Of a stretch of DNA of 64,000 nt, positions 29,310-64,000 are shown in pieces. Each line of letters opens with the position of its first letter. Within the stretch, counting starts at the first letter, position 1. Below the pieces are notes generated by a model that was not told where the DNA came from, ran no database searches, and saw only the letters and a program-made list of their open reading frames with translations. The DNA comes from Parietichytrium sp. I65-24A (lineage: Eukaryota > Sar > Bigyra > Thraustochytrida > Thraustochytriidae): assembly GCA_012862575.1 (NCBI GenBank), contig BLSF01000031.1, forward strand, positions 248,001-312,000, in the 5' to 3' direction. The translations under genes and the position numbers were made by a program.

Positions 29310-32300
29310 CTACTCCAAAAGCTTTTGCAATCCTGGAATAGTCTTGAAAACATCTGGCGGAAGCATGAGAAGCACGTACTGTGCATACTTGAGCTCATTG
29401 TTGATCGCGGCAAAAGTTCTGACGAACGCAACGAATAAGATCACAAGGACTACTAAACTACAACACCACAAAATTAAAATAGTCCCAAGCGACTCCTCTA
29501 TCTCGAGAAGAACAAGTTCTAGGTATCGATCCATCGTTGCTTCAAGAACTGCGGAGAGCACCATGGTAGAATTGAAGTCCAAAGTTTCTATTTTGACCTG
29601 CTCACTGCTCACAAGTGCAGCGGTTGCACTGACTAAAACTCGCTCAAGTGCGGCCCCTTGACCCATCCCCAGATCGACGACGATTTGCATGGTTGCGTTG
29701 AATCGGCTATCGAGGCAAAGCTCGTGAAGGCATCCATTCACAAACTCATAGTTGTACAAAGTCTCATCTTCTTCGCTCGACATGAGTGCTTCGGCGAGAG
29801 GATCCTCGCTACCGTATACAAGTCTGTTGGAGATTGCATACACCTCAGAGACGGAAGTCAAGACAGCCAGCGTCTCATTGAATGCGACAGGATCGGCGTA
29901 CCAGCTCGACCATTCTGGTAGGTTTTCGTATCCTGCCAACAAACCAAGATGAATTCTGTTAAGATGTGACCACCTCTTTCCAGCTTGCAACAGAGTCGAG
30001 CTCAGGGCAATCGTGTGATCTCTTTCGATTTGGCTCCAGTAATACGTAAACACAAAGTAACCTTGCAAAAGAAACAGCGGGAATAGCAATAGAAATATGC
30101 GGCCAAGGAACCAAAGGTTGTTTAGGAAAGCATGCAGCCTCTGTGATTCTTTCTTCTGCTTTGCAAGAACTGCAGGCGGCGCTTCAGGCGAAACTTTGCT
30201 CTTTTTGAAGGAAATTTTGTTCCGAAAAGACCTATTCTTTCCACTTGCCTGGGAGTCATCGGTCTCACGAAAAGACTTTGCTCCGACGAAGGTGGCGACG
30301 CGATAGATAGCTCCAAGCTTTTGTCTTAGCGATTTGAAGCCCTCGGGCTTGCCCGCGTTCACAGCTTCCATGTGCTCTTTCACTAATCCGACTTTTGCTT
30401 CCGAGCTGCTCGCTAATCTAGAAATGAGGCCTTTAGGTAGTTCGTCCAGTGCCTTCGACATCGTCAGCTTAGTTTGTCTGATTTCAAACAACAGTGGAGC
30501 AATCTTCACTAAGCTTATAATTACAACGACAGTTCCTGTCACATTCAGCACAATGAAGTTGGTCTCCACCAGCAGATCAAGCGACGAGACGATAAAGTCT
30601 AGGTACTTGTCAGCTGATCCAACAAGTCCCTCATAAATTTCCCACGGGGCATTATTCACGAGGTACGTACAGCACACTCCACACGTCATAGTCTCAGCTT
30701 CATCCGCGAAGCATTCCGCATTAGTGATAGAGCGCAATATCGCCCTTTGAATAGATGTATTTGAATAGCCAACGTAGGGAGCAAGAAGCTGGAGAGAATC
30801 ACTGCCAGTCAAAAAGGAGTGAAGAAGTGTGGATTGTGTTGCTTCTCTCAACAGGATCTCGTCCTCTGAAGCGCGCATCAACTCAACAGTCTCTGCAACG
30901 ACATCGACGTAGAATTCTGGCGAATTGGCTGTGTCGAGCTGGTCGTCATCAATCGCTCTCCAGTAGCCTAGAGCAGCAGAATCAACTCTCGTTAAGTAGT
31001 GCAGCCGACGGAAGGTTTCGGCAATATCCTGACACGCATCAAAAACGTCATTCAGGTATGATGACTGAACGAACTTTGAAAAAGTTGCTGCGATTGCGAA
31101 GAACAGAGCCCAGAGCAGAGTACTGCGCTTGAAATGAAAGAGTCGAAGGTCCTCAAATTTAATGCGCTTGTCGACCGCTTTGTGGATCTCAGCGCCATTT
31201 GCGCCCGCCCCCTTGGAAGCCACCGATTTCTCGTCTTCCGAAGCCTTTGCTGAAGGACGTAGCTGCAGATCGTCGTCCCCGAACCTCCTGCTCTTCTTTA
31301 ACAAGCCGCTTTGAAACATCTCTTTTCTGGACTTTGTGCTCTTCGTTGACTTGAACAAACCATCGCTTTCCAAATGTTCGACCGCGCTGCTGTTCACAGA
31401 GATGATGTCCGAGTCCTCCATCTCCAGTTCTGAATCCTCCGTGTCTAGCTGTGTAAAATTGAGTAGAATGAAGGGGTCGCCTTTACGACATGTAGTCGGC
31501 TCTGGGCTAATGCTATAAGCTTCATCTTCAATCTGAATAATCAGCTCTGTATCAGCGGCTTCGTCTACGTCGTCAATGAATTGTTGCAGATCCCCAAATT
31601 CGCTGCACTGCGGAATTTTCTTCCTCAAATCAGTCGCGTGCCCAGGTTTGATATTAAATTTCTTTAACATAGAGAGAGAGGCAAAAAGAACCTTCATGTC
31701 TCTGTCAACGGCAATGAAGTCCGTCTCGGGCAATTTAACGCACTTCACAGAGATTTCTGTTCTCTCCTGAATAGAATTTGACGAAAAGCTCACTCTGACG
31801 TGGACAGCGTGACCTGCTCGATTCCTCATCCAAATAGGAACTGCAGAACTCGTCCCGATGACGGAAAAAATATCCAGCAGGCTTTCAGAGCGGGTCTCAT
31901 CGTTCGGACAGATCAACTCACTCGTTTTGTGTCCGATCAATGCATCTCGACTTACGCCTAGAATTGCAGTTATGTTGTCAGTAACTTCCAAAATGTTTCC
32001 CGTGTTCGGCCCGGAACCGACGAGAGTTATGATGGCAGCGTTTGCCCCTCCAAAGTCTGCCGTGCTTTTGGCTGCATTTTTGGCTGCAGACCTTGCGAAT
32101 CCACGTAGACTCTTGCCAAGGTTATTATCGTTAATGACCTCCTCTGCATAAAGTGCATATAGTAACAGGGCGTTCGGTGCGCTCTTGCTGATGAGAATGA
32201 GGTGCTCCAAGTGGCTCTTCGCGCTCTGCATGCTCTGATATGCTTTGCTTGCAACCAAAAACAACTCGTCTGAAGACCTTACGCGCTTGGACAGAATTTG

Positions 32301-33728
32301 CCATAGAGCATTTGCGGTCCTCAGGGAGTCCAAAATAGAGCTTTCTGCCATCTGTCGATGATGTGTGAATGCAACGTATCCAAGTGCACCTGAGGCTCCA
32401 CTTGACCGTTCCTGACTCCTCTTGTAGTACTGGAAAACGAAGAAGCTGTGATCAATTGCCAAACGCATGCTGCTTGAACGCTTCACATACTGTGAAGCAA
32501 GCACACTATTCTGACCGCAGTGATCGTACAAATTCGCGAGCTGAAGATGCAGGTACGGCGACTTGGGGAACATCGTGTCTACAATGTCGCGGTATTTGTT
32601 CTTCACGTCCTCCCAGGTTTCCCTTGATGGCCGCAAGTTGTAACGCAAGACAACCTCCGCATAATAGGGGGACATTCGCGGGTGGACAAGGTCAGAGCGT
32701 AGCCGTGACTCTCGCACTTTGACTGCGCAGGCAAGCATATAGAGAAATGGTGGAAGGCCTAAAAGCAGAGTAGCTACAGCGCCATAGTCCGTTGTGTCCT
32801 TCACTATTTCAGCGAGCAAGAGAGCAACCCCGCTCCACAGGTATGCGCCATACACAAGCACAGAAACCGTATTCATATCGGATCGATGATGAGGAAGGTA
32901 GATATAGTTGGAGAACGTCAAGAGAAAACCTGTGGAGAGCACGACTCCAACCAAAACATATGTGTTTTCCACCATGTTGAAAAGGAAGCTGAGCAGCGCT
33001 CTTATTCCAAGCGAGAGGCTTTCGAGACGCCCGTGCGCCTGGGCAAGGGCGTGTTTACTTCCTGGTTCATTTTCTATATAAACACAGGACAACACCATGT
33101 TAAAGACGACGAACGTAAAGATCAAGACCGAGACGAACCCGTTTAAGACCATCCGAAAAACTGTTCCACACTCCATGTAATCGTCCACAGGGAGATGGCA
33201 GCTGATGAAACTGAATAAGACGGTGAGAGTTGGCACGTAGAGCACAGTGGTCAAAAGTTTCATAGTCAGCTGGAGAAAGGGCAACACATTCAAGTGCAGC
33301 ACTGTCCCCGTGCTCCAAAATTGATAGCCGATCCACAAGCACAGCACGCCATTGATCAGAAGCAAAGAGCCCGTCGCGAGAAACATCAGCAGAGCGAACA
33401 AACCGCTCATATGGTTGACGAATTGGAACTCCACAAATTCAAAGGTTGGCTCAAGCGCGTGCCTGAACCCTGGCATCCATGAAAAGTCTGCGCTGCGGAA
33501 CGAGAAACCAACCATCTGGAGAAGATCAATCACCTTTATAAAATACGCATTTGCAGTGGACACCTCCCCGTCTTTCGACATCAGGTACATGAGCATGAAG
33601 AGAGAGCTCTTAAGCCTCGCCAAGATGCCCCCCCGCTTCTTCCCATGAGAAACGTCTGTGACGCCATCGTCGTCCGACGGCGCGGCGTTCAAGCCGAGTA
33701 AATTCAGCACGTTGTCGTGCTTTTCCAT
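29310..33728 (-). CDS. TmcB/TmcC-like polytopic membrane protein with PAS domain, paralogue 1
   Basis: The 1472-residue intronless protein starts at an ATG (MEKHDNVLNLLGL). An N-terminal block of about ten membrane helices (residues 30-345) is followed by a cytoplasmic helical-repeat region (about 349-545) with the signature YALYAEEVINDNNL. This resembles the repeat region of the tiny macrocysts proteins TmcB/TmcC of social amoebae and other protists. A PAS-like domain lies at about 560-680, then a charged linker. Four further membrane helices lie near 866, 1056, 1208 and 1413. They enclose two extracellular domains with paired cysteines (CGVCC; GCLHELC). Each module ends in a cytoplasmic leucine-proline motif (SKALDELPKG; LLMLPPDVF). 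A sensory or signalling role at the membrane is inferred; the ligand is unknown. It is the leftmost of three tandem paralogues. Confidence 0.75.
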   Translation of the reverse strand: MEKHDNVLNLLGLNAAPSDDDGVTDVSHGKKRGGILARLKSSLFMLMYLMSKDGEVSTANAYFIKVIDLLQMVGFSFRSADFSWMPGFRHALEPTFEFVEFQFVNHMSGLFALLMFLATGSLLLINGVLCLWIGYQFWSTGTVLHLNVLPFLQLTMKLLTTVLYVPTLTVLFSFISCHLPVDDYMECGTVFRMVLNGFVSVLIFTFVVFNMVLSCVYIENEPGSKHALAQAHGRLESLSLGIRALLSFLFNMVENTYVLVGVVLSTGFLLTFSNYIYLPHHRSDMNTVSVLVYGAYLWSGVALLLAEIVKDTTDYGAVATLLLGLPPFLYMLACAVKVRESRLRSDLVHPRMSPYYAEVVLRYNLRPSRETWEDVKNKYRDIVDTMFPKSPYLHLQLANLYDHCGQNSVLASQYVKRSSSMRLAIDHSFFVFQYYKRSQERSSGASGALGYVAFTHHRQMAESSILDSLRTANALWQILSKRVRSSDELFLVASKAYQSMQSAKSHLEHLILISKSAPNALLLYALYAEEVINDNNLGKSLRGFARSAAKNAAKSTADFGGANAAIITLVGSGPNTGNILEVTDNITAILGVSRDALIGHKTSELICPNDETRSESLLDIFSVIGTSSAVPIWMRNRAGHAVHVRVSFSSNSIQERTEISVKCVKLPETDFIAVDRDMKVLFASLSMLKKFNIKPGHATDLRKKIPQCSEFGDLQQFIDDVDEAADTELIIQIEDEAYSISPEPTTCRKGDPFILLNFTQLDTEDSELEMEDSDIISVNSSAVEHLESDGLFKSTKSTKSRKEMFQSGLLKKSRRFGDDDLQLRPSAKASEDEKSVASKGAGANGAEIHKAVDKRIKFEDLRLFHFKRSTLLWALFFAIAATFSKFVQSSYLNDVFDACQDIAETFRRLHYLTRVDSAALGYWRAIDDDQLDTANSPEFYVDVVAETVELMRASEDEILLREATQSTLLHSFLTGSDSLQLLAPYVGYSNTSIQRAILRSITNAECFADEAETMTCGVCCTYLVNNAPWEIYEGLVGSADKYLDFIVSSLDLLVETNFIVLNVTGTVVVIISLVKIAPLLFEIRQTKLTMSKALDELPKGLISRLASSSEAKVGLVKEHMEAVNAGKPEGFKSLRQKLGAIYRVATFVGAKSFRETDDSQASGKNRSFRNKISFKKSKVSPEAPPAVLAKQKKESQRLHAFLNNLWFLGRIFLLLFPLFLLQGYFVFTYYWSQIERDHTIALSSTLLQAGKRWSHLNRIHLGLLAGYENLPEWSSWYADPVAFNETLAVLTSVSEVYAISNRLVYGSEDPLAEALMSSEEDETLYNYEFVNGCLHELCLDSRFNATMQIVVDLGMGQGAALERVLVSATAALVSSEQVKIETLDFNSTMVLSAVLEATMDRYLELVLLEIEESLGTILILWCCSLVVLVILFVAFVRTFAAINNELKYAQYVLLMLPPDVFKTIPGLQKLLE

Positions 33729-35837: not shown

Positions 35838-38800
35838 CTAACTTGACGTGATACCCTCTTCCTCGTCCAAGAGTTTGCGGAGCTCAGGGACAGTCTGGAA
35901 CACTTCAGGCGGGAGCATTAGCAGGATGTACTGGGAATACTTCAGCTCGTTGTTGATCCGAGCAAAGAGCCTGTACACCGTGATGAATACTAGCGCGAGG
36001 CCAATCCAGAACAAGAACGACATGATAAGCACATTTGTCTCCGCTGACAGAAATTGCGTACCGATAGAGTCGGAATACAGTTCCATGGTGTACTGAATAG
36101 CAAGAGAGAAAGCGAAAGCGGCAGTGAGGCCCATGAACTCAATATCGTCTCCCCCATCTAACAAGATTCCTTCAGCTCTGTCAATAAGGCGGTCAACACC
36201 TACACCAAGTCCATACGACAAGTCTACAATCGAGGCCTCTGGATCCCCGCCGTTCAAGACAGCAAGGCATCTCGGATCGACGCACCCAGACACATACTCG
36301 ATGCTGAAAAGCTCAGGGTGTTCATCCTTATCCAGCAACCCAACTGTGCCAAGAGTATCATCTCCGTACACGATCGCCTTGGTGACCGCCCTTGCTGTCT
36401 GCAACATCTCGACCCCTTCTTCAGAAGTGTTGTATAGGGAAGGATACAAAGCATACCTCGCCCACGCTGGAGTCTTCTCGGTATCCAGCGCTGGGGTTTC
36501 GATGATGCGGTGAATGTGCTGGATATGAGACCACCTTTGTCCTGCATACATCATTGTTCTTGTTTCCTTGATGGCTTCCTCGGAGACAATCTTACTAATG
36601 AAAACGACGAGACCAAAATACCCAACCAAGCAGAGAAAAGGAAAGAGAAGTGTCAAGAGCGACTTCCAAAAATGAAAGTGAAGTCGAAACCTTTTCCTGC
36701 AAGATAATTTGGGTTTCTTGTTCCCTTTCCCAGAACGAAGCTTTTCTTTTCCGCCTTTCTTCTTGATAGCTGGAGTAGCTGGCGCAACTTTTGTCGACTT
36801 TCCTGCGCCATTGGTTGGGTCAGTGTCTGTAAATTGCGTTTTCAGCGGAGGAATGTTTGGCCTTCCATTGACTTCCTCCATCATGTCCATGTTGCTAGCC
36901 TCGTCAATTTGATTCTTCGTGCGCCCGGTTGTCTGCTGACCATTTTCGATCCTATCCATCTCCTCTTTCACCAAAATAGTCTTGGATTGGCTTCGTTTCC
37001 GAAGTTGCGTGACCATGGACTTTGGAAGTTTCCCAAGCGCCTCGCTCATAGTCTGCTTTGTGCGTCGAATCTCCAACAGAACAGGCAAAAGCTGGAAAAA
37101 AATAATGAAGACTACGAGACACCCACTGATGACGAGCGCTACGAGGTTATAATAGTCGGCTTCGTGCAGAATAGCAGCAGCGCTTTCCACGTACACCTCA
37201 CTACTCCTTAAAGCTCCTCGCAGGACCTCCCATCCGCCGTTGTTGTAGATATAGCGACAGGATATCTCGCAGCCTGTTTGGTCTTCACCGAGAAATGCCT
37301 CGCCGTTGCTTGCGAGACGCAAAATTGCCCTGCTCAACGAAGTGTCGTAGAACGTACCGTCATCCAAAAGCTCGGTGTAACTGGAAGACGTTTCCATAAG
37401 TTCTTGCTGTGCCGAGTCATAAGTTGCTGAGGAAAGCAGCTGATTGTGCAAAGTTCGGATGGCGACGGAGTCGTTGTAGACCAAGCTCGGAAGAAATTCC
37501 CGAAGCTCATCTGCTTCTTCTGTATTGAACACCAACACATTCCACTGATGATATATAGCGAGCTGCAACTCAGTTATGAGATACGCACGCTCGCTACTGA
37601 TGGAAATTACGTCGAGAATTTCAGACAACTTCGTGTAAGTTCCCTTTTGAACCACGAGGGAGGCCAGAGCGAGAGAGGCAAAAAGCATGGCGAGTATGAT
37701 GCATTGCTTTCGGAAACGATTCAGCCTGGCGTCTTCTCTCATGATGCGCCTCTCTACTACCCTATGCAAGGCACTGCCTTGACCGGACACAGCAGAACCC
37801 ATCGACTTGTTGTCGCCGAAAGAAGACTCGCTGCCGACTGATTTCTCGTCCCTCAAGCCATTCTTCGTTGACGGTGATTTTGGAAGCTCTCCGAGATTCA
37901 GCTTGCTTGCGTTTCTGGTTTGAGGTGAGCCCAGAAGAGGTTTCGATGGAGACTCGGCTGTGGCTTCCTCAGGGCCAGAATCCATGTCGGACCCGTCATC
38001 TTCAGCTACCACTAAGGTGAACTCGAACTTGATTGCAGCGACTGAACCATGAACGATTACCGGCACTGGAACGACAGTGTACGTGTCTTCATCGCCACCA
38101 GACACGCGCATCCCTTCGCGAGTATCTCTTAACTGACGAGCACGTTCAAGTTCAAACATTTCAGCAAAGTCGCCAAACACTTTCATCCCAGGAATGAGTT
38201 TGCACACGTTCGTATCCCTATTATTGAATCCCACTCCTTGTTGAAGGCTCCGTAGACCAAAGTCTCGCATAGCGCCTTGAGAGAAGAAGAGAATACAGCC
38301 ATTTGCATCCACTCCAACGTATTCAGGGGAATTTTTATCGAGAACGCATTTCCCAGAAAACTCCAGATTCCCGCTACGATCAGTACTCGCGGAGATCGTT
38401 AGCTCCAAGGGGATGGTATATCCAGCGACATGCTTCATGAACACGCTCCTCTTTGGTTGGTCGATAGAGTTTCCGCCCTCTAGATAGCGCAGCAAATAGG
38501 AATTGTGATTAGTAGAGAATGGCTCCGGGCAGAAGTTGTCGATGAGCTTGCCGATCATCTGAGATTTGTTGTACCCCGCAAGCGTAGTGATACTGTCTGT
38601 AACATCGGTAATTTGGCCAAGAGTGGCTTCGTTTCCGCTCAAGGTCACGATCGCGATAGCGTTGTTGTTGAACTCGTCTTCCCCTCCTTTGCCGCTTCGA
38701 GCAATATCTCGTGCAGTTCTCCTGAGCCTTTTCGCGAGAAGTGAATCATTCATGACTTCTTCTGCATACACCGCATAAAGCAGCAACGTTTTCGGAGAGC

Positions 38801-40355
38801 TTTTACTGATGAGAATAAGCTGATCCAGGTGAAGCTTTGCAGATGCAGTGTGCACATAGATCTTACTCGCCGCCTGGAAGAGATCATCAGCAGTGTGGGC
38901 TGGATTCGAAAGAACATTCCATAAATTGTTCACCAATCGCAAAGATTCAAGAATGGACTCTTCGGCCTTGATACGGTGCTGGTTGAATGCTACAAAGCTG
39001 TGACCACCACCTCCTGCTGACTTTTCCAGTTGTTGCCGATTGTACTGGAATATTTGAAAATTACTGTCAAATTGTTTCAAAGGCGTCGATGCTGCACGTC
39101 GGATGTATTGACTCGCCAGTAGTGTATTGTTCCCGCAAGTTTCAAAGAGATTGGCTAGACAGATATTCAAGTAAGCGGAGTGGGGAAAAGTCTCCTCAAC
39201 AATTCGCTTGTATTCGCCCTTGACATCGTCCCAGTTTGCAGTAGTTGGCTTGAGCTTAAACCGCAACACGATTTCTGCAGTTAGAGGGGATAAGCGGGGA
39301 TGCACCTCGTCATTTGCCATCCGCTGCTCGGCAACAATCACGCCAAGAATGCTTCCTATCATAATCACGGGTCCTCCCAGAAGAAAAGCTGACATGGCGC
39401 CGAAATCGCTGGTATCATTGATGATTTCGGCAAGAACAAGACAAAGCCCGGACCACATGAACAGCGAGTAGAGCGCAACGTACAGGCGGTTCATTTCCTT
39501 GCGCAAAAATGGCATGTAAGTAAAATACAACCCAGTTAGCAAGACTCCAATCACCGCGACAGTGGCTACGAGAACTTGAGGGAAGGAGTTCTTCAGAGCG
39601 GCGGAAGCAAGAACAAGTGCCAATCGAATAATATTGGCACCAGCCTCCACTCGGATTTGAACTTGACCCATTGCGTTCAGTGACTCTGGATCCCCGTCAA
39701 TGTGTAAGAATGTGGCAAGTGATACGATGAGAAGGAAAAGTGCGATCAGAAAGCCTGTAATGACCTGCAAAGCAATCCTCAACCCACCTCCATCGCAGCC
39801 AATATAGTCCGTGAGACCTGCAGAGCAGTCGTAAGCGGAAACCAGGACAGCAGCACTTGGGATAAAAACAACAGAATTCAAAATCCGAAGAATCAGTTGT
39901 AAAACGGGCATGAGGGTGAGATACTTAATCTCGCCAAGCTTGAAGGATTGATAGCAAAACCAAGATGAAATGAGGACTGCCAGACAAATCAAGATGGCAA
40001 TCGTCAAGTAAACTGCCAGTGCTGCAGCGCCCCCGGAGTCCTGGACGGTTTGAAGCGTAAGAATGTTCAAGTTTGAGCGCAACACAGAATGGAAGTCGGC
40101 ATGCCATCTAAACTCTGCAGACTGAAAGGAGTAGGAGATGAGCTGCAAGGTGGAAATGATTGACGTCAGGTAGGCCACTGGCGCGCTGACTGCTGTGTCC
40201 TTCGCGGCAAGGTGCAACAGGTTGAAGAGAGCTGTCTTCAGCTTTGTGCGAAACGACTTGGACTTTTTGGACGAAATTGTTTCGATACCGTTCTCATCGC
40301 GCTCCACCCGCTCATCCTCCAGCTTGAGGAGGTCCAGCACGCTTTCGTGCTCCAT
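35838..40355 (-). CDS. TmcB/TmcC-like polytopic membrane protein with PAS domain, paralogue 2
   Basis: The 1505-residue intronless protein starts MEHESVLDLLKLEDE and keeps the full order of its neighbours: N-terminal membrane block (to about 345), helical repeats (about 350-545, signature YAVYAEEVMNDSLLAKRLR), PAS-like region (about 560-700), acidic linker, and four C-terminal helices near 882, 1070, 1245 and 1445. The ectodomain cysteines are CEISC and GCVDPRC. The cytoplasmic motifs are SEALGKLPKS and LLMLPPEVF. A lysine-rich loop (KKKGGKEKLRSGKGNKK) precedes the third C-terminal helix. Residue matches to paralogues 1 and 3 run the whole length, so the array arose by duplication of complete genes. 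Function is unassigned beyond probable membrane sensing. The protein lacks a C-terminal cyclase or kinase domain, which some multi-domain protist receptors carry. Confidence 0.75.
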   Translation of the reverse strand: MEHESVLDLLKLEDERVERDENGIETISSKKSKSFRTKLKTALFNLLHLAAKDTAVSAPVAYLTSIISTLQLISYSFQSAEFRWHADFHSVLRSNLNILTLQTVQDSGGAAALAVYLTIAILICLAVLISSWFCYQSFKLGEIKYLTLMPVLQLILRILNSVVFIPSAAVLVSAYDCSAGLTDYIGCDGGGLRIALQVITGFLIALFLLIVSLATFLHIDGDPESLNAMGQVQIRVEAGANIIRLALVLASAALKNSFPQVLVATVAVIGVLLTGLYFTYMPFLRKEMNRLYVALYSLFMWSGLCLVLAEIINDTSDFGAMSAFLLGGPVIMIGSILGVIVAEQRMANDEVHPRLSPLTAEIVLRFKLKPTTANWDDVKGEYKRIVEETFPHSAYLNICLANLFETCGNNTLLASQYIRRAASTPLKQFDSNFQIFQYNRQQLEKSAGGGGHSFVAFNQHRIKAEESILESLRLVNNLWNVLSNPAHTADDLFQAASKIYVHTASAKLHLDQLILISKSSPKTLLLYAVYAEEVMNDSLLAKRLRRTARDIARSGKGGEDEFNNNAIAIVTLSGNEATLGQITDVTDSITTLAGYNKSQMIGKLIDNFCPEPFSTNHNSYLLRYLEGGNSIDQPKRSVFMKHVAGYTIPLELTISASTDRSGNLEFSGKCVLDKNSPEYVGVDANGCILFFSQGAMRDFGLRSLQQGVGFNNRDTNVCKLIPGMKVFGDFAEMFELERARQLRDTREGMRVSGGDEDTYTVVPVPVIVHGSVAAIKFEFTLVVAEDDGSDMDSGPEEATAESPSKPLLGSPQTRNASKLNLGELPKSPSTKNGLRDEKSVGSESSFGDNKSMGSAVSGQGSALHRVVERRIMREDARLNRFRKQCIILAMLFASLALASLVVQKGTYTKLSEILDVISISSERAYLITELQLAIYHQWNVLVFNTEEADELREFLPSLVYNDSVAIRTLHNQLLSSATYDSAQQELMETSSSYTELLDDGTFYDTSLSRAILRLASNGEAFLGEDQTGCEISCRYIYNNGGWEVLRGALRSSEVYVESAAAILHEADYYNLVALVISGCLVVFIIFFQLLPVLLEIRRTKQTMSEALGKLPKSMVTQLRKRSQSKTILVKEEMDRIENGQQTTGRTKNQIDEASNMDMMEEVNGRPNIPPLKTQFTDTDPTNGAGKSTKVAPATPAIKKKGGKEKLRSGKGNKKPKLSCRKRFRLHFHFWKSLLTLLFPFLCLVGYFGLVVFISKIVSEEAIKETRTMMYAGQRWSHIQHIHRIIETPALDTEKTPAWARYALYPSLYNTSEEGVEMLQTARAVTKAIVYGDDTLGTVGLLDKDEHPELFSIEYVSGCVDPRCLAVLNGGDPEASIVDLSYGLGVGVDRLIDRAEGILLDGGDDIEFMGLTAAFAFSLAIQYTMELYSDSIGTQFLSAETNVLIMSFLFWIGLALVFITVYRLFARINNELKYSQYILLMLPPEVFQTVPELRKLLDEEEGITSS

Positions 40356-42642: not shown

Positions 42643-45600
42643 CTAAGCTTTCTCAATCAGTTTTCTCAGCTCTGGGATGTTCCTGAAGACTTCGCTAGGC
42701 AGCATCAACAAGATGAATTGCGCATGCTTCAACTCGCTGTTGATGATGACAAAAATCTTGTAGATGGAAACGAAAACGAAGATGACAAGAAGCGAGAACG
42801 CTACAGTCAGAATCATAAGGACCCGGTAAAGTGCCGCAGCACCGGCAGCCAAACCATCCACGGAAATGTTGACGGATTCATGGAGAGCTCTCTCGAGAGC
42901 AGGTGAAGACCAGTATTTGAGTACCTTCACTTTGTCGCCGTCAATATTCGCATCCACCCTTTCCAACAATCTTTCCAGAGTGATTCCGAGGCCGTAATTC
43001 AAATCAGAGATTGTGTTTGGAATAGAGGTGCTTCCATCTGGCTGGTTCTCGACCATGAGATCTGTGCACTCAGGAGAGTAGCATGCAGACTCGTACTCGA
43101 TCGTAAAAAGATTGTCTGAATAATACACGTCAGCTAGGGAAGCTGTCTCAGAGTTGCCGTAAAGGATGGTGGAAGAGATTTCTCGTACTATTTCCACATC
43201 AGAAATCAGGGCTGAGGTTTCATTGTATGTTGACGGAAAATTGACAGAGCGCAACCAGTCAGGCTTCTGATGGAACTGTGAAAGGGTAAGGAAGACTTGA
43301 ATGCGGAAGACCATTGACAGCCGTTTACTCATCTGTGCCAAAGACCCAGCTTGAAGTACCTCTTCTGCGCATAGCTTTTTTCCAAGCAAAAAGACGGCAA
43401 GAAAATACCCAACTAAGAAGAACAGCGGAACAACGAGGCTGCTAAAGTTTCGTACCGAGGCTTTTACGCCATCAAAATTTGCCTTTTGACGAGCTCGCTT
43501 CTCCTTCCTTTTCGCTGCAAGCGTGCCTTTCGGGGTTTTGTCGCCATTTCGAGCAGATGGAGCAACCTTGCTACCCTTTTTGTCCCCAATGGAGAGGTCT
43601 GACCGCTGCCGAAATACACCTCCAGGATTCTCGTCATCTCCAAAATCAACTCTTCCTTTCTTTCCCTTGGATCTGGAGTAGCTCGTGGAACCGCCCTGTA
43701 TCTCATCCATTGCCTGCTTCACCAAAACGATCTTACCGTAGCTTCTTTTGCACAAGCTAGACAACATAGCGGCTGGTAACTTATGCAATGCTTTTGACAT
43801 CGCTTCCTTGGTCCGGCTGATGTCTGATAAGAGCGGCAATATTTGAATACAGATGATAATGACTACAGTAGAACCTGCAGCGACGAGCATCCCAAAGTTG
43901 AAATTGCTGACGATGTCAAGCATTTCAACGACTCGGGTTTTGTATGTTTCACTTGCTGCAAGCGCTTGATCAGCCAGCTCCCAGGCGGCATTGTTAATGA
44001 TATACTGACAGGACAGTTCACAGTCGGCTTCATCCTCTTCAAGAAAGGATTCCGCGTTCGACGCAATCCGCAAAAATGCTCTGTTCATGGAAGTTTGATC
44101 GAAATGTTTGCCGTCGACGGTATCTACTAAGAGAGTCTCGTCGTTGTAAAAGCTTACATCTCCAGCATCTAGGGAAAGGAGCGTATTGTGTAAGGTTCTA
44201 AGATTTGAAGCTTGAAGCGAAACCCTTTCACGAATGAAACCTTCCCGATAAGTTATGTTCCCCGTCGCATCTTCCTCGAATATATCGATAAAATGTGCAG
44301 CCATACCAAAGCCAATATCAAGAAGGGCAAAAGCGCGCTGCGAGCTCAGATCGATAGCTTCAATGCGCCTTTGCACTGCGCTAAACAGCTTGCCAAGTGT
44401 TCCGATGCCAAAAACAGCGAGAATGATAAAGTAGAAAACGAAAAATATGCATGCAACCCGAAATCGTGAAAGACGCCCCTCTTCTCTCTTTATCCTGTTC
44501 TCCACGCTTCTGTGCAGAGAGCTCATCCCACTCGACCTTGCAGTGCCATTTGATCCAACCGACTGATTGTCATCGTCAATAAATGAGCGGCTTCCGTAAG
44601 AAGCAAAGCTTTGACGGTCGTCATCGTCATCACCACCCTGTCGAGGGGCCACAACACCTCCCCCATGCCCCCCGTGAAGAAGTCTTGTCCGAGTACCATC
44701 GCGCTTCTTGGAAAGCAAGCCCTTGAGTGGCATTGCCTCATCTGCTTCCTCGTCTCCGCTTCCATCACCCGATCCAGAGAGATCATCGATCTCCGAGTCA
44801 ACATCTTCATCTGGCTTGGGGGTGAACGAAAGTAGCACGACGTTGAGGACTGTCTTGAAGGAGATTGGAACTGCATTCACGTAGTATTTGTCTCCGCCGT
44901 GTGCAATTATATGCGAGGCTGGTTGCAAGCTTTTCGTATCACGTATCGTTACTTCGCGGCCGCCTTGAAATTCCCGCACGCTCGTGAACATTTCCTTCCA
45001 ATCCCCAAAGACGTTAATTGCAGGAATGATTTTGCTGATTTCGACTTGCCTTGCATCAGAAGGGTCAGGGACAGACTTGAGACCAAATTCAGACATCATG
45101 TCCTCAGAAAAAAACATGACGTGACCATGTTCATTAATGCAAACATAACCGGGATCGTCGAGGACTTTAACGAGCTTGCCAGAGAACTCCAGATTCCCAC
45201 TATTATCCTGCACTGGCGTGATAAACAGCTTCATGGGCATCGTGTATCCAGCAGCATGTCGCACCCAGACCTTTCGCGATTGCGTGCTCATTGACTCTGT
45301 CTTTTCTATGTAGTTGGAGAGAAACATGGAGTGAATCCCTTCCGAGAACGGACGAGGGCACATAAAGTCAATCAACTTCCCAATCAAGTCTCCTTGGGCG
45401 AAGCCGCACACTTTGGTGACGTTGTCGCTCACCTCGGTCACGATTCCGAGGGAAGCTTCATTCCCACTGATGTTGATAATGACGCAATTTCCACTGTTGA
45501 ACTCATCCTCCACTGAGCTCTTTCCAGATTTAATCATCTCCTTACCAGCTGTACGAAGTCTCCGAGCTAGGGAGGTGTCGTTTAATACCTCTTCCGCATA

Positions 45601-47187
45601 CACGGAATAGAGGAAGACTGCTTTTGGAGAGCTTTTGCTTAGGCTGATAAGCTGATCCAAGTGTGATTTTGCGAGGTTGGAATTAAAATATATGCGGCTT
45701 GCTGCTCTGAAAAGATCTTCCGTTGATTTGCTACTTGAGCTCAGAATCTTCCACATTTCGTGAACATGTTTGATCGTTTCCAGAATTGCCGTCTCCGCTT
45801 TGTTTCGGTGGTGGGTGAAGGCGACGTAGCTCATAGCGCCTTCGTTACCACTCACTCTTTCTTGACTTTTCTTGAAGTATTGAAAAATCAGGAAGCTGTG
45901 ATCAAAGGCACGTTGCTGAAGAGAAGAAGCTCGACGAACATATTGACCAGCAAGTAACGAGTTATTGCCGCAGAACTCAAACAAATTTCCCAACACGAGC
46001 ATCATGTACGCAGAATCTGCAAAATGCATTTCCGTATTGTCTCGGATCTCATTCCTGATGGAGATCCAGTTCTCGACATTAGGCTTTAGGCGAAACCTTA
46101 AAACAATCTCGGCATGAAATGGTGACATTCGAGCGTGAATCTCTTCGTTGGCGAGTTTGGATTCCTGATAGATCGTCAAAAGCACAAGCATTGCGACGAA
46201 GACTGGCCCTCCCAGCAAAAATGCGACCATTCCGCTGTGATCCGATGTATCTCCCACCGCCTGAGCGACAGCGAGGCAAATCGCGGACCAGAGAAATAGA
46301 CCGTTGCTAGCGACATGAATTCTGTTTGCTTCAGGATGAAGAAATGGATGATACCACATGTAAGCGCAAGTGAGGCCAAGCGATATTACAAGAAGAGCTG
46401 GAATGAGCAGAACGGCGTTGGAATTGTCCAAAAATGTGAATAGCAGTACTAAAACCGTGCGAAGCAAAATGCTCACGAACTCCACTCGACCATGAATTTG
46501 TGACAGTGCGTTGGAACTCAATGGGTTGCCGTCCACGAGAAGCAGAGCGTTTATTGCGCAGAACGCAACGTGGAAAATAGTTAACAAAGAAACCAGCAGA
46601 GCCAGCACAATGTGAGCAGTTGTACTTGTACAAGAAACCCAATTCACGAAAGGCGAGTCACAGCTATGGACAGAGAGTAAAGCTGTAAGGATCGGGATGT
46701 ATAAAATTGACCCAGACAGTCGTACTGAGAGACGCAGAATCGGAAGCGGCCAGATTTGCCGGACTACTCCCGTCCGCCAGTATTGCATTGCGAACGAAGA
46801 ACAAATTACGGCCGTGCATGTAGTGATTGCCAGCGCTCCAACAGTCACTGCCGAGCTTGCTGATCCATCAGAAGTGTAAATGAACTGAAATGTTGAGATA
46901 GCTAGCTTGGGCTCCAACCATGCCAAGAAGCTAGCGTCCCAGCCTGAGCCCTCGACTTGAAACGAGTAAAACGAAAGTTGGATGGCATTGATGAAAGCGA
47001 ATAGGTACACGAAGATCCACGACGCTGAAAGTTCTTTGGTGGCCAAGTGAGTTACTGTGAATAACGTGTTGCGCAAAGCAATCTTGAGAGACTTGTGTTT
47101 GCCGCCTGAGTTCCCTCCATCTTGATCATTTTCCCCGGCTTCGTCGTTTTCCACTTTAAGCAGTGCGAGTACCTTTTCGTGAGACAT
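42643..47187 (-). CDS. TmcB/TmcC-like polytopic membrane protein with PAS domain, paralogue 3
   Basis: The 1514-residue intronless protein starts MSHEKVLALLKVEND. The N-terminal membrane block (to about 340) leads into helical repeats (about 346-545, signature YSVYAEEVLNDTSLARRLR). A PAS-like region lies at about 565-640 and a second PAS-like stretch (YVCINEHGHVMFFSEDMM) near 690. An acidic then Asp/Ser-rich linker precedes four helices near 907, 1097, 1248 and 1454. The ectodomain cysteine pairs are CELSC and ACYSPEC. The cytoplasmic motifs are SKALHKLPAA and LLMLPSEVF. It is the rightmost member of the array and lies beyond the 640-bp duplication. All three members point the same way, so each probably has its own upstream promoter. 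Confidence 0.75.
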   Translation of the reverse strand: MSHEKVLALLKVENDEAGENDQDGGNSGGKHKSLKIALRNTLFTVTHLATKELSASWIFVYLFAFINAIQLSFYSFQVEGSGWDASFLAWLEPKLAISTFQFIYTSDGSASSAVTVGALAITTCTAVICSSFAMQYWRTGVVRQIWPLPILRLSVRLSGSILYIPILTALLSVHSCDSPFVNWVSCTSTTAHIVLALLVSLLTIFHVAFCAINALLLVDGNPLSSNALSQIHGRVEFVSILLRTVLVLLFTFLDNSNAVLLIPALLVISLGLTCAYMWYHPFLHPEANRIHVASNGLFLWSAICLAVAQAVGDTSDHSGMVAFLLGGPVFVAMLVLLTIYQESKLANEEIHARMSPFHAEIVLRFRLKPNVENWISIRNEIRDNTEMHFADSAYMMLVLGNLFEFCGNNSLLAGQYVRRASSLQQRAFDHSFLIFQYFKKSQERVSGNEGAMSYVAFTHHRNKAETAILETIKHVHEMWKILSSSSKSTEDLFRAASRIYFNSNLAKSHLDQLISLSKSSPKAVFLYSVYAEEVLNDTSLARRLRTAGKEMIKSGKSSVEDEFNSGNCVIINISGNEASLGIVTEVSDNVTKVCGFAQGDLIGKLIDFMCPRPFSEGIHSMFLSNYIEKTESMSTQSRKVWVRHAAGYTMPMKLFITPVQDNSGNLEFSGKLVKVLDDPGYVCINEHGHVMFFSEDMMSEFGLKSVPDPSDARQVEISKIIPAINVFGDWKEMFTSVREFQGGREVTIRDTKSLQPASHIIAHGGDKYYVNAVPISFKTVLNVVLLSFTPKPDEDVDSEIDDLSGSGDGSGDEEADEAMPLKGLLSKKRDGTRTRLLHGGHGGGVVAPRQGGDDDDDRQSFASYGSRSFIDDDNQSVGSNGTARSSGMSSLHRSVENRIKREEGRLSRFRVACIFFVFYFIILAVFGIGTLGKLFSAVQRRIEAIDLSSQRAFALLDIGFGMAAHFIDIFEEDATGNITYREGFIRERVSLQASNLRTLHNTLLSLDAGDVSFYNDETLLVDTVDGKHFDQTSMNRAFLRIASNAESFLEEDEADCELSCQYIINNAAWELADQALAASETYKTRVVEMLDIVSNFNFGMLVAAGSTVVIIICIQILPLLSDISRTKEAMSKALHKLPAAMLSSLCKRSYGKIVLVKQAMDEIQGGSTSYSRSKGKKGRVDFGDDENPGGVFRQRSDLSIGDKKGSKVAPSARNGDKTPKGTLAAKRKEKRARQKANFDGVKASVRNFSSLVVPLFFLVGYFLAVFLLGKKLCAEEVLQAGSLAQMSKRLSMVFRIQVFLTLSQFHQKPDWLRSVNFPSTYNETSALISDVEIVREISSTILYGNSETASLADVYYSDNLFTIEYESACYSPECTDLMVENQPDGSTSIPNTISDLNYGLGITLERLLERVDANIDGDKVKVLKYWSSPALERALHESVNISVDGLAAGAAALYRVLMILTVAFSLLVIFVFVSIYKIFVIINSELKHAQFILLMLPSEVFRNIPELRKLIEKA

Positions 47188-53175: not shown

Positions 53176-56100
53176 TTCTCCGACAAATCTTCACCCCGGA
53201 CAACCCTTCAACCTCAGAAACTAAGTACTCAATCCACATTCACGACTGTCAGAAACGCGAAAGATGTCATCGAAAGCGCAAAAGAAACACCCATTCCCCT
53301 CTCCAGCATGCCCCGAATCTTCTCCAACATGCAAGTCCAAGTTATTTTCCTCCGAGCGAACGTTCATCGAGTATTTCCTTGAATGCAAGTCCAAGTTGTT
53401 TTCCTCCGAACGACCGTTCATCGAGTATTTCATTGAATGAAACATGCAAGTCCAAATTATTTTCCTCCGAACGACCGTTCATTGAGTATTTCCATCAATA
53501 AAACATGCAAGTCCAAGTTATTTTCCTCCGAACGACCGTTCATCGAGTATTTCATTGAATGAACCAACCCGAAGAAATTGGCAATAATAGTGTTCATGCG
53601 AGCAAAGCAAGTCTTCTTTGATAGCTTCTGAAGCCCTCTTTCGCGCGCCATCATTCTCACCCGCCCGAACATCGCGAGGAGATTTCCTTCCCGCGTTCGC
53701 TCTTTCCGCCTTCCACTGTCCTCGCCACTCGCCACTCGCCACACGCCACTCGCCACTCTCGGAATAATTGATAAGATTACCCCCTCAATATTCCCGCGCC
53801 TGAATGTACTTACTGTATTTTGCCGATCGCTTGGCTATTTCGCCGATATCGTGCGCGAGGACGCAGGTTACGCTCGGCTCGAATGCGCCGAGTTCAGCTT
53901 GATGACGTATGTGTGATGTCATCACGAACGAGTTGTAGTTGCGGATACGAATTGTATGTCAAATATTGATTCGATATTTTGAGACGACCGGCCCGGCAGG
54001 TATGGGCATGCATGGGCAGGCAACCGGAGTGATGGAGGACTTGCATGTTCGCATGTCACAATCAAGGTCGAACAACGAGTGGACGAGGCAGTGCCTTTGC
54101 TCATTTTGTGCATGCAATGTTGGACTGGAAATGTGGACATGGCCTCCAGCGTGCCACCATCGCTTGCATGGCTTTCTTTCACTTTTTTCTAAATTCTAAA
54201 TTCTATGCTCTGGAGATTTGGGGACCGTCGTCTCATAATATCTTGCCACTGTGGCAACTGTGGCACGGGGAAATGACTTTCTGATCAGCGCCGAGTTTTT
54301 CCAGGCTTGACCTTTGGCAAGGGCAGCATACCTCTGAAGTTGGCTTGCAGTTAGCCAGAACAAAAATATCTTTTCCGCCAGAGTTTTTGAAGCGGAGACG
54401 TGGATCGCAGATGATCGCACCAGCAACCAAAGATCTGCGCGGCGCCCCACCCCAGGGAGTCTACTTTCGGATCCGACATGGTTCAAATCGAAATTCCAAA
54501 TTCAGCACCAGCCGTGAAAGCTGTAACGAACGCCTCATGCCCACTTTCGCGTGCGCCAAGAGGACAAAGTTTGGGCTTCCGGGCCGGACCTCTTCTGAGT
54601 TACGGCGATTCCGGCTGCTTCTTGGAGAGGAATGCATTCCAAACTCTATCGAACTCTTTGGTGAAGGAAGTCAAAATTGCAACACTATGAGCTCGAGGGA
54701 TCTTGAGGGTTGAAGAAAAAGATTTTTGCTATCATACCGGAGTTGCAAACGTTCACGAACACTGGATCATGACGAAGGTGATCACAGCCCGGTGTCCACT
54801 GGCGAAACTAATGAATAAACCAGCGAGCCCACCTTGCTGATGCGGAGAATGCGGAGCACGGATGGGATTCGAAAGGATAAGGAATGCCAAACCTGGGGCG
54901 CAGGAGGGCACGTGCGACGATTTTTGTGGTCAATGTATTTACCATTGTTTTCTGAGTTGGTCGCACTGGTCTGCAGACCACAAAAAACGGAATATTGCTT
55001 TCCAACATTTCAGTACACGATGGATTTCGTGTGTGTAGTCATGTGTAGTCCTGAGTTTCCACTAACTGTTATGTATCGACGAAGATCTTTCCAAACTTTG
55101 GATTATTTGGATCATTTGGATCGTTTGGATCATTTCTATCGTTTGAATCATTTGGATCATTTGGATCATTGGAGAGTCTCAAAGGTGGTGGATCCACAAC
55201 TCGATCAGTGGGTAGCCAGATCCATCTTTCCGAGTCCAAAAGAAAACATTTGGCTGGCATATGATTGGACCCACGCAATTCATGAACATAATAGCCCATG
55301 ATAGCCCTTTCAAGAGTGCATACAGTGCTCCTATAGATGACGCGAAGTGAGCCAAAATAGCGGTCCCTATCGGAGAGTATTCGACTTTTACCTGTACACT
55401 GTTCAGTGACGGGCTGTGAGCTGAAAGCTGAGCTGGCCACGGCAGGAGGTGGAGGTTGAAATTCGTTTCTTGCATTTCAATCTCAGTCGTGTTTGCTGTT
55501 TCTACTCAAGCTTGCGGATAGCACAAGTAAGTTTACTGCTTAAAGAAATTAGAAGTCAGAGAATCCACTCTCAGACTTTTCGAAGGCTCTGTACACTCAG
55601 TACTCAGTACTCACTGTCAGTACCAAGCAAGATCTTGCACCGTGAAAAAACTCAGATTTACCTGCGTCTGATAAGTGCGAGCGCTTCGTACTCCTACAGT
55701 CGCCACGATACTGACACTCTATCTAAATAGGAGTTTTCATGTCGGTTGTTAATAGGCTATACTTGTAGCAATCGAATGGACAGAGAGTAACGACATTGGG
55801 CAAGAGATGGCAAAATCTGCGAGGCCCTATAGATAGCTGTGACGGTAGAGTACTACGCTTCCATTTGATGAACAGTACACGTACGTGCTAGCAAGTTACA
55901 CAATGTACACCACCGCTACTGCCTCTCGAGATTTTGTTGCGTTACTTTTAGTGCCACTGCAATCTCTTTCTCATCAACTCAAGCCTTGATACTGAAAGGA
56001 ATGAAGGGGCGGAAAGAAATATGGCCGCGAATAGCCGTAGTCCTTCTTTGTAAGCTTTTAATTAATAGTGGATGTCGGCCAGCCTTGAAAGACGACCGGC

Positions 56101-62296: not shown

Positions 62297-64000
62297 ATGG
62301 AGACCGGAGAAGAGAATTCACCACTTGCGAAAGCTTTGCGTGACCTTAGAAGTAATGATGTTGTCGAACTTGTGTAAGTCTCATCCTGACTCCTTTATGT
62401 CTGGCTGAGTCAGTCACTGACCGCATGATTGCATCCTTCTCACAGTCTTGTATCCAATCGAATCGGTGCAGAAGGAGCATCGTCGCTGGCAGAAGCGCTC
62501 AAGGTGAACACATCGTTGACCACTCTCTAGTAAGTCTCAAAGCTATGATTAGATGCACTTGAATAGGGTTATCTTTCCTTGATTACAGCGGATTCATCGC
62601 AAGTCACTGACTCCTTCCTCCCCACAGTCTTCGCAGAAATCAAATCAGTGCAGAAGGAGCATCGTCGCTGGCAGAAGCGCTCAAGGTGAACACATCGTTG
62701 ACCAGTCTCGAGTAAGTCTCAAAGCGATGATTAGATGCACTTGAATAGGGTTATCTTTCCTTGATGACTGCGGATCGTTTGGAAAGAGAACTGAATACAT
62801 GCTCTTCACAGTCTTGAGAGCAATGAAATCAGTGCAGAAGGAGTATCGTCGCTGGCAGAAGCGCTCAAGGTGAACACATCGTTGACCAGTCTCAAGTAAG
62901 TCTCAAAGCGATGATTAGATGCAAACTGAACAAGTCTATCTTTCCTGGATGACTGCGGATCAATTGAAAAGAGACTAACTGCACGCTCTTCACAGTCTTG
63001 GAGGCAATGACATCAAGGCAGAAGGAGGATCGTCGCTGGCAGAAGCGCTCAAAGTGAACACGTCGTTGACCAGTCTCAAGTAAGTCTCAAAGCGATCATT
63101 AGATGCAACTGAATAGGGTTATCTTTCCTTGATGACTGCGGATCGTTTGGAAAGAGAACTAAATGTGCGCTCTCCACAGTCTTGGCGGCTCTGACATCGG
63201 AGCAGAAGGAGCGTCTTCGCTGGCAGAAGCGCTCAAGGTGAACACATCGTTGACCACTCTCAAGTAAGTCACAAAGCGATATTTAAAATGCAAATCGAAG
63301 AAGTCTATTCTTCGTCGGCAATGCGAATTCATCAATAAATCGCTGACAGCGTCCTATTCACAGGCTTGGCGGCTCTGACATCGGAGCAGAAGGAGCATCG
63401 TCGTTGGCAGAAGCGCTCAAGGTGAACACATCACTGACAATTCTCGAGTAAGTCTCAAAGCTATGATTAGATGCACTTGAATAGGGTTATCTTTCCTTGA
63501 TTACAGCGGATTCATCGGCAAGTCACTGACTCCTTCCTCCTCACAGTATTTGCGGAAATCAAATCAGTGCAGAAGGAGCATCGTCGCTGGCAGAAGCGCT
63601 CAAGCGGAACACATCGTTAACCAGTCTCAAGTAAGTCTCAAAGCGATGAGTAGATGCACCTGAATAGGGTTATCTCTCCTTCATGACTGCGGATCGTTTG
63701 GAAAGAGAACTAAATGCATGCTCTTCACAGTCTTGACAGCAATCCAATCGAGGCAGAAGGAGCATCGTCGTTGGCAGAAGCGCTCAAGGTGAACACATCA
63801 CTGACAATTCTCAAGTAAGTCTCAAAGCGATGATTAGATGCAAACTGAACAAGTCTATCTTTCCTTGATGACTGCGGATCGTTTGGAAAGAGAACTAAAT
63901 GCGCGCTCTTCACAGGCTTGTATACAATACAACTAAGGCAGAAGGAGCATCGTCGTTGGCAGAAGCGCTCAAGGTGAACACATCACTGACAATTCTCGAG
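62297..64000 (+). CDS. Leucine-rich-repeat protein encoded one repeat per exon (5' part; runs off window)
   Basis: A first exon (62297-62373, METGEENSPLAKALRDLRS...) ends in phase 2. Nine LRR exons follow: 62446-62529, 62628-62711, 62812-62895, 62996-63079, 63180-63263, 63364-63447, 63547-63630, 63731-63814 and 63916-63999. Each is exactly 84 bp and phase 2, with GTAAGT donors and CACAG acceptors; introns 2 to 9 are 98-101 bp. Each exon encodes one 28-residue repeat of ribonuclease-inhibitor type, LxxNxIxAEGASSLAEAL then KVNTSLTxL. The last 18 or so residues are nearly constant. The first six after the leading leucine vary (VSNRIG, RRNQIS, ESNEIS, GGNDIK, GGSDIG and others). Known LRR_RI proteins are cytosolic binding scaffolds, including NLR receptors. 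No signal peptide or NB domain is seen in this part. The window ends at the first base of the next intron. Confidence 0.88.
62446..63999 (+). repeat. Tandem exon-intron repeats, 184-bp unit with a 919-bp higher-order period
   Basis: Exon plus intron form a unit of about 184 bp repeated nine times. Introns fall into classes by their 3' half. Introns 2 and 7 share GCGGATTCATCG and TCACTGACTCC. Introns 4 and 9 share GATGCAAACTGAACAAG. Introns 3, 5 and 8 share GGATCGTTTGGAAAGAG with a GCACTTGAAT/GCAACTGAAT/GCACCTGAAT start. Intron 6 is unique. The order repeats after five units, and matching exons 3/8, 4/9 and 5/10 lie 919, 919 and 920 bases apart, showing block duplication. Confidence 0.88.

Follow-up and report, generated by a model that had tools for sequence, protein, structure and literature searches.

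Animal NLRs are NACHT-based proteins whose LRRs lie C-terminal to the NTPase. In the available text on their exon structure, ribonuclease-inhibitor-type LRRs are carried on frame-preserving exons that would allow exon skipping, with two repeats per 171-bp exon in NLRP3, and exon lengths corresponding to a single repeat, i.e., 69-87 bp, are enriched (PMC6642158). For brown-algal ROCO proteins, the accessible part of the report describes one LRR (23-residue repeats) per 72-bp phase-2 exon before ROC-COR, together with exon shuffling, sites under positive selection on the concave face and additional arrays of LRRs only, with LRR-ROC-COR as the sole ROCO arrangement in these algae (PMC11378527). 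In Tetrahymena, as far as the account could be consulted, many genes consist of tandem arrays of equal 90-bp one-repeat LRR exons with introns almost exclusively of phase 2; exon shuffling together with ectopic recombination is held to account for their expansion, some arrays are fused to protein kinases, and the authors suggest a single origin of the 90-bp/phase-2 genes, in Tetrahymena (PMC6564038). In a green alga, one protein set is discussed both for its LRRs and for a KAP-type NTPase in which membrane helices are predicted, with the KAP C-terminal in a plant-type NLR-like locus and the exon-per-repeat structure unmentioned in the available excerpt (PMC7145615).

The window considered here is a whole stretch of 64,000 nucleotides from the thraustochytrid Parietichytrium sp. 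I65-24A, i.e., C31:248001-312000, where C-numbers designate the contigs of the genome (42.5 Mb, 172 contigs) and C31 is the one carrying the window. Profile TIGR02813, taken as an indicator of thraustochytrids, yielded partial matches, none of which exceeded its cut-off. At its 3' end begins a gene, hereafter gene A, in which one-repeat LRR exons precede an exon coding for a KAP family NTPase. One-repeat exons of phase 2 are common to gene A, Tetrahymena and brown algae in the texts available, whereas exon length differs, namely 84 bp (28-residue repeats) here, 90 bp in Tetrahymena and 72 bp in brown algae. The Tetrahymena account names kinase fusions, a KAP or ROC-COR-TIR fusion not being found in its accessible part (PMC6564038). 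Compared with the brown-algal arrangement, as far as it is documented in the text at hand, gene A has KAP instead of ROC-COR, while other loci of this genome have Roc and COR-A plus a TIR after COR. With animal NLRs, gene A has in common the ribonuclease-inhibitor-type LRRs, but its LRRs precede the NTPase, which is of the KAP type. The geometry and logic are common to the Tetrahymena, brown-algal and animal NLR systems, and the length, repeat type and effectors differ. Within the portions of the open-licence literature that could be consulted, no prior report was found of an 84-bp phase-2 LRR exon array with KAP or ROC-COR-TIR.

Organisation of gene A

The features of gene A are as follows.

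Window 62297..62373, + strand: first coding exon, 25 codons + 2 nt, METGEENSPLAKALRDLRSNDVVEL, ATG at 62297, phase-2 donor
Window 62446..62529, + strand: LRR exon 1, 84 bp, phase 2-2
Window 62628..62711, + strand: LRR exon 2, 84 bp
Window 62812..62895, + strand: LRR exon 3, 84 bp
Window 62996..63079, + strand: LRR exon 4, 84 bp
Window 63180..63263, + strand: LRR exon 5, 84 bp
Window 63364..63447, + strand: LRR exon 6, 84 bp
Window 63547..63630, + strand: LRR exon 7, 84 bp
Window 63731..63814, + strand: LRR exon 8, 84 bp
Window 63916..63999, + strand: LRR exon 9, 84 bp, its GT straddling the window end and read in the contig
C31:312099-312182: LRR exon 10, past the window end
C31:312290-316511: KAP exon, 3' of LRR exon 10, past the window

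The nine exons of equal length and phase that the first-pass annotation had described are present at exactly the positions it gave; each is stop-free, preceded by AG and followed by GT, with one base of a split codon at the start and two at the end, i.e., phase 2 on both sides. The extent of 62446..63999 proposed for the gene holds for these nine exons and not for the gene start, since the start exon sits at 62297-62373. Reading on past the window, as had been advised, gave the tenth LRR exon and then the KAP exon. Tandem Repeats Finder reported the gene A array with a period of 184 bp, 8.4 copies and a score of 1786, and 10 out of 10 LRR cores were framed at exactly 84 bp when exon length was not assumed. 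The phase-2 pattern (1 nt + 27 stop-free codons + 2 nt) recurs in 37/37 of the exons found on C31, these exons being deduced from the sequence. All 34 introns between LRR exons of C31 start with GTAAGT, so that, with a phase-2 donor, an unspliced intron would give an immediate in-frame TAA.

Elsewhere in the window, three tandem proteins of about 1,500 aa are encoded on the - strand (29310-33728, 35838-40355 and 42643-47187), each with a TmcB-type TPR match and two of them with a PAS match under its cut-off. A 1,484-aa frame (18962-23416, + strand) combines a cyclic-nucleotide phosphodiesterase and a nucleotide cyclase catalytic domain, while its match to an ion-transport-like region stays under the cut-off. 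Positions 53326-53563 hold a tandem array of diverged 61-bp units.

Paralogues and turnover of exons

Two paralogues of gene A are found on C31, and a similar start exon lies upstream of each of the three genes. Gene B, which is intact, comprises 18 LRR exons from C31:77652 and an open KAP frame of 1,346 codons to 85002. Gene C comprises nine LRR exons from C31:86364, its KAP part being broken by assembly joins; single-N joins, which lie outside the window among the tandem LRR-KAP genes, occur at C31:89900 and 91304 and enclose a second partial KAP copy, and the copies are probably unresolved in the assembly. Additional pieces are also present on C31. In the same genome, a second family of LRR exons was considered, amounting to 75 distinct exons (80 before duplicate removal).

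The introns had been described as nearly identical, which is wrong: the mean pairwise difference is 0.20 in gene A, 0.28 in gene B, 0.28 in gene C and 0.36 in the second family, and a difference as small as 0.01 is reached by only two intron pairs on C31. Besides the difference in exon number (10 in A, 18 in B and 9 in C), runs of introns pair with each other within genes, namely A1-A2-A3 with A6-A7-A8 and B1-B2 with B11-B12, and C3-C5 of gene C are collinear with B3-B5 of gene B. The closest relative of an intron lies in another gene in 18/34 cases on C31 and 22/58 in the second family, and in the adjacent unit in 2/34 and 9/58, respectively. From these repeated runs and the nearest-intron pattern, the arrays apparently gain and lose blocks, and this block-wise turnover would seem to match the product of unequal crossing-over or conversion between symmetric exons. 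At C17:188598, a second-family array ends in an exon whose core and acceptor are of the C31 type, which suggests either an exchange or a shared terminal exon. On C47, two units have zero intron difference and the same exon translation; on C8, three tandem units at 396737, 396923 and 397109 (186-bp spacing) likewise share one exon translation and are regarded as very recent duplications. Since these translations are unchanged, C47 and C8 give no sign of immediate hypermutation.

The KAP exon and its product

The product of the 3' exon of gene A (1,407 codons) matches PF07693 (KAP family NTPase) with an E-value of 6.5e-27 and 95 bits against a curated cut-off of 20, which places it in the KAP family. 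KAP is the sole domain over cut-off in this exon; the NACHT or NB-ARC NTPase that defines NLRs is thus not what gene A carries. Visual inspection of the translation gave a Walker A motif (AHWGAGKS) and a Walker B motif (YIDDIDR). In the 3' exon product, these motifs flank three hydropathy peaks (residues 358-376, 558-576 and 596-614), and two more come after Walker B (709-727 and 1051-1069); the hydrophobic segments between the motifs are predicted as probably membrane-spanning. The Glu/Arg-rich C-terminal tail, judged by eye, resembles a coiled coil.

Relatives from other organisms were drawn from profile libraries, PDB sequences and the literature. One bacterial KAP NTPase in phage defence goes by the name of PifA. 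In the sources as far as available, a KAP P-loop NTPase with hydrophobic segments, as in gene A, is common to Kidins220/ARMS, QatA, Tmn and PifA, Kidins220 being rich in ankyrin repeats, unlike the LRR-bearing gene A. Tmn is likewise a bacterial KAP NTPase in phage defence according to the accessible text (PMC11846954). In the defence library, the best matches of the gene A KAP product were to QatA of the Qat anti-phage system with partial cover, and the QatA profile reached 55.8 bits against a curated cut-off of 600; bacterial KAP profiles as such match gene A in part only and far under their curated cut-off. A search of PDB sequences with the KAP exon returned nothing below E 0.1.

Between paralogues, dN/dS of the KAP exon is 0.27 (A-B, 1,339 codons), 0.36 (A-C, 628 codons) and 0.46 (B-C, 629 codons). 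The KAP exon is under purifying selection, with the exception of alignment columns ~150-300, where pN is about equal to pS.

Repertoire of 84-bp LRR exons in the genome

Array stretches were picked by DNA match to gene A, by stop-broken matches or by position upstream of COR, and not by exon length. In each, LRR cores were sought without an exon-length assumption on the strand with more of them, and AG/GT was then checked at the exact 84-bp positions. This framing was found for 112 of the 125 LRR cores in 12 array stretches and for 0/61 cores at seven LRR loci of this genome with unbroken frames. Ten of the 13 failed cores fall within five ROC-COR stretches, where 21/31 LRR cores keep both 84-bp borders. 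On these predicted exons, the 84-bp exon-per-repeat design is genome-wide.

That the arrays are functionless tandem repeats, decaying or mis-assembled, is hardly credible. The single-N joins in the KAP exon of gene C and the LRR cores elsewhere lacking 84-bp borders would fit such a view, but the KAP frames of A and B are open (1,410 and 1,346 codons) and under purifying selection, splice borders were present at each LRR exon found in these two genes, and the contig stretch covering gene A contains no N.

With the best 150 candidates scored, the gene A protein query gave at least 133 matches in the genome and the second-family query at least 192, uninterrupted LRR genes included in both cases; the exon-style LRR matches listed amount to 117, forming 50 clusters on 37 contigs. 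Linkage was defined, among these listed matches, as a same-strand exon-style LRR within the 6 kb upstream. By this definition, linked LRRs precede 6/11 COR matches (two behind one C35 array), three of four KAP genes (four after merging 7 matches, a fragment of a broken copy being excluded), 6/38 TIR matches and none of 15 NACHT matches, for a chance expectation of about 0.004 per match. At C43:128742-129287, another KAP match sits in a 2,383-aa frame with none of the listed LRR matches close upstream.

Roc, COR-A and TIR_2 occur in a single open frame after 84-bp LRR exons at four loci, with the following numbers of exons.

C12: 12 LRR exons of 84 bp before the Roc-COR-A-TIR_2 frame
C107: 4 such exons
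C75: 4 such exons
C35: 3 such exons

On C4, one 84-bp LRR exon is followed by Roc/COR-A/TIR_2 over two frames, and at C88:118782-122098 two such exons stand before a frame that codes for a protein kinase domain. In these loci, the LRR exons and the downstream ROC-COR-TIR or kinase frames would belong to one transcript. The similarity to the exon-per-LRR genes of brown algae, invoked in the first-pass annotation, is actually stronger than proposed there, because 84-bp LRR exons are also found upstream of ROC-COR frames. The C88 kinase frame also has a Cys-rich, RING-like stretch, noticed by eye and not a Pfam match. At C48:318387-321245, LRR and TIR_2 matches fall in one unbroken frame of 1,429 aa, which may be an LRR-TIR gene free of introns.

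For the arrays on C8, C58, C40, C47, C42, C131, C137, C84, C129, C98 and C17, no linked domain was recognised in short flanks. Of four flank frames of such arrays compared with Pfam, three gave no match and one, on C137, a vitamin-B6 photo-protection domain that probably belongs to a neighbouring gene. Several of the arrays sampled are broken or gapped.

Variable codons and selection

Among the 37 exons of C31, codons 2, 3, 5, 7 and 26 have high amino-acid entropy, and the split junction codon is variable too; codon 4 is mostly a conserved N, codon 6 mostly a conserved I, and codons 8-25 hardly vary. In the second family, entropy peaks at codons 2, 3, 5, 8 and 26, codon 7 being mostly G. The variation said to be concentrated in the six residues after the first leucine is thus borne out at codons 2, 3, 5 and 7 and not at 4 and 6, just as the supposedly constant remainder of the exon is nearly constant over codons 8-25, with codon 26 and the junction codon departing from it. 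The variable codons are presumably the exposed positions of the LxxLxLxxNxI pattern of the LRR consensus.

The pairs compared are paralogous exons of one genome, with a shared history, and as the variable codons were first picked from the very exons under test, that choice is circular; the claim therefore rests on held-out genes, LRR-consensus positions and a silent-site control. In C31 pairs with flanking introns no more than 0.12 apart, codons 2-7 differ by 0.289 against 0.086 for the introns (15 pairs); in the second family with a cut-off of 0.10, the values are 0.278 and 0.075 (19 pairs). Under the tightest cut-offs, 4 pairs give 0.139 for the codons and 0.050 for the introns, and 3 pairs give 0.111 and 0.021. 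In independent pairs with a cut-off of 0.13, second positions of codons 2, 3, 5 and 7 differ at 10/36 sites on C31 (introns 0.081) and 17/52 in the second family (introns 0.095), against 2/23 and 4/38, respectively, for silent third positions of the conserved codons 1, 4 and 6 interleaved among them (P 0.07 for C31, 9 pairs; P 0.012 for the second family). At a cut-off of 0.2, the corresponding counts are 24/60 vs 4/38 on C31 (P 1.2e-3) and 22/68 vs 2/47 in the second family (P 1.4e-4); at the stricter cut-off, the contrast with interleaved silent sites is weak on C31. Over all close pairs, the silent rate is 0.13-0.14 at codons 1, 4 and 6, 0.11-0.12 at codons 8-24 and 0.09 in introns. Amino-acid change at the exposed codons thus runs at about three times the flanking-intron rate, with interleaved silent sites hardly raised, i.e., between paralogous exons of one genome, exposed residues are replaced faster than neutral sites. 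This excess would fit selection for diversity.

The rate check recommended at the outset for codons 2-7 gave a more divided result: pN/pS is 1.19 (1.03-1.56) in gene A, 0.84 (0.69-1.01), i.e., not above 1, in the held-out genes B and C. For the second family, whose silent sites approach saturation, it is 0.70 (0.64-0.78). At consensus-exposed positions, the values are 1.31 in A, 1.54 (1.27-2.26) in B and C and 0.81 (0.76-0.86) in the second family, pN/pS being weakly informative on near-saturated codons. Replacement relative to silent change in the second family does not clearly differ between codons 2-7 and 8-24 (Fisher P 0.77, 0.57 and 0.06 at three cut-offs).

In held-out exons, pN/pS over codons 2-7 is close to 1 or lower, as relaxed constraint would produce, the exposed LRR positions being free to vary and concerted evolution homogenising the remainder, and the variable positions are those generally tolerated in LRRs; unconstrained sites are, however, expected to change like introns and silent sites, whereas second positions of codons 2, 3, 5 and 7 change about three times as much as introns in close pairs of both families, which makes this explanation improbable. 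Very much less probable again is that local hypermutation or short-segment swapping makes the variable stretch, with selection secondary. At codons 2, 3, 5 and 7 with the amino acid unchanged, silent third positions are indeed raised in close pairs of the second family (16/58), which would allow some segment exchange, and pS over codons 2-7 there reaches 0.40 in one comparison; the count for this silent class on C31 is, however, 0/18, silent sites of the interleaved codons 1, 4 and 6 are at or slightly above the intron rate, and the C47 units and the three C8 units share their translations. Relaxed constraint and local hypermutation were both judged less likely after this comparison with introns and interleaved silent sites.

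Function of the gene A family

We consider it fairly probable that the gene A family represents germline-diversifying, NLR-like recognition receptors, most likely serving cell-autonomous non-self recognition. The protein would consist of a ribonuclease-inhibitor-type LRR domain, with one 84-bp phase-2 exon per repeat, N-terminal to a KAP P-loop NTPase. The array exons would be joined by splicing, the resulting LRR solenoid would bind variable ligands, and binding would switch the membrane NTPase as in NLR, ROCO and bacterial KAP defence proteins. Germline diversification would come from selection combined with unequal crossing-over or conversion among symmetric exons. Gene A would be one of a genome-wide set in which 84-bp LRR exons stand before ROC-COR-TIR, one kinase frame or no recognised domain. 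Read at the level of sequence, this account has as its basis modular exons, varied exon numbers, block duplications, a constrained scaffold and KAP, and fast exposed residues. The idea of a diversifying receptor locus, with which the first-pass annotation had started, is accordingly upheld within one genome by the symmetric exons, the 10/18/9 exon counts, the block duplications and the exposed-codon change above intron and silent yardsticks, and not by pN/pS over codons 2-7, which is not above 1 in held-out genes.

Arrays could also be diversified by selection for another kind of recognition, namely of mating partners or kin, in adhesion, or of prey or particles. Sequence tests reveal selection for diversity and are silent on its cause, and in the structure search LRRs of the gene A type occur in many non-immune proteins, i.e., ciliary proteins, ribonuclease inhibitor and RanGAP. 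KAP, ROC-COR-TIR and kinase downstream of the arrays are more typical of defence signalling than of these other roles, so that such an origin of the diversity is unlikely, if with some weight.

Going further than NLR-like receptors diversified in the germline, a common pool of swappable 84-bp LRR exons might be recombined in the germline, perhaps also by alternative splicing or within cell lineages, onto at least three chassis, i.e., KAP membrane NTPase, ROC-COR-TIR and protein kinase, as a combinatorial recognition system of a small-genome protist, having evolved in parallel to those of Tetrahymena and brown algae; this is a speculative extension, on which we place only limited credence.

Two exon families of this single genome show replacement in excess of intron change. 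As a further case of one-repeat LRR exons with its own length, type and effectors, the present one would make repeated origin by the same route likelier, and testable. With KAP, ROC-COR-TIR and kinase behind the arrays, it would offer a direct route to asking if exon turnover serves to diversify the immune receptors of a protist.
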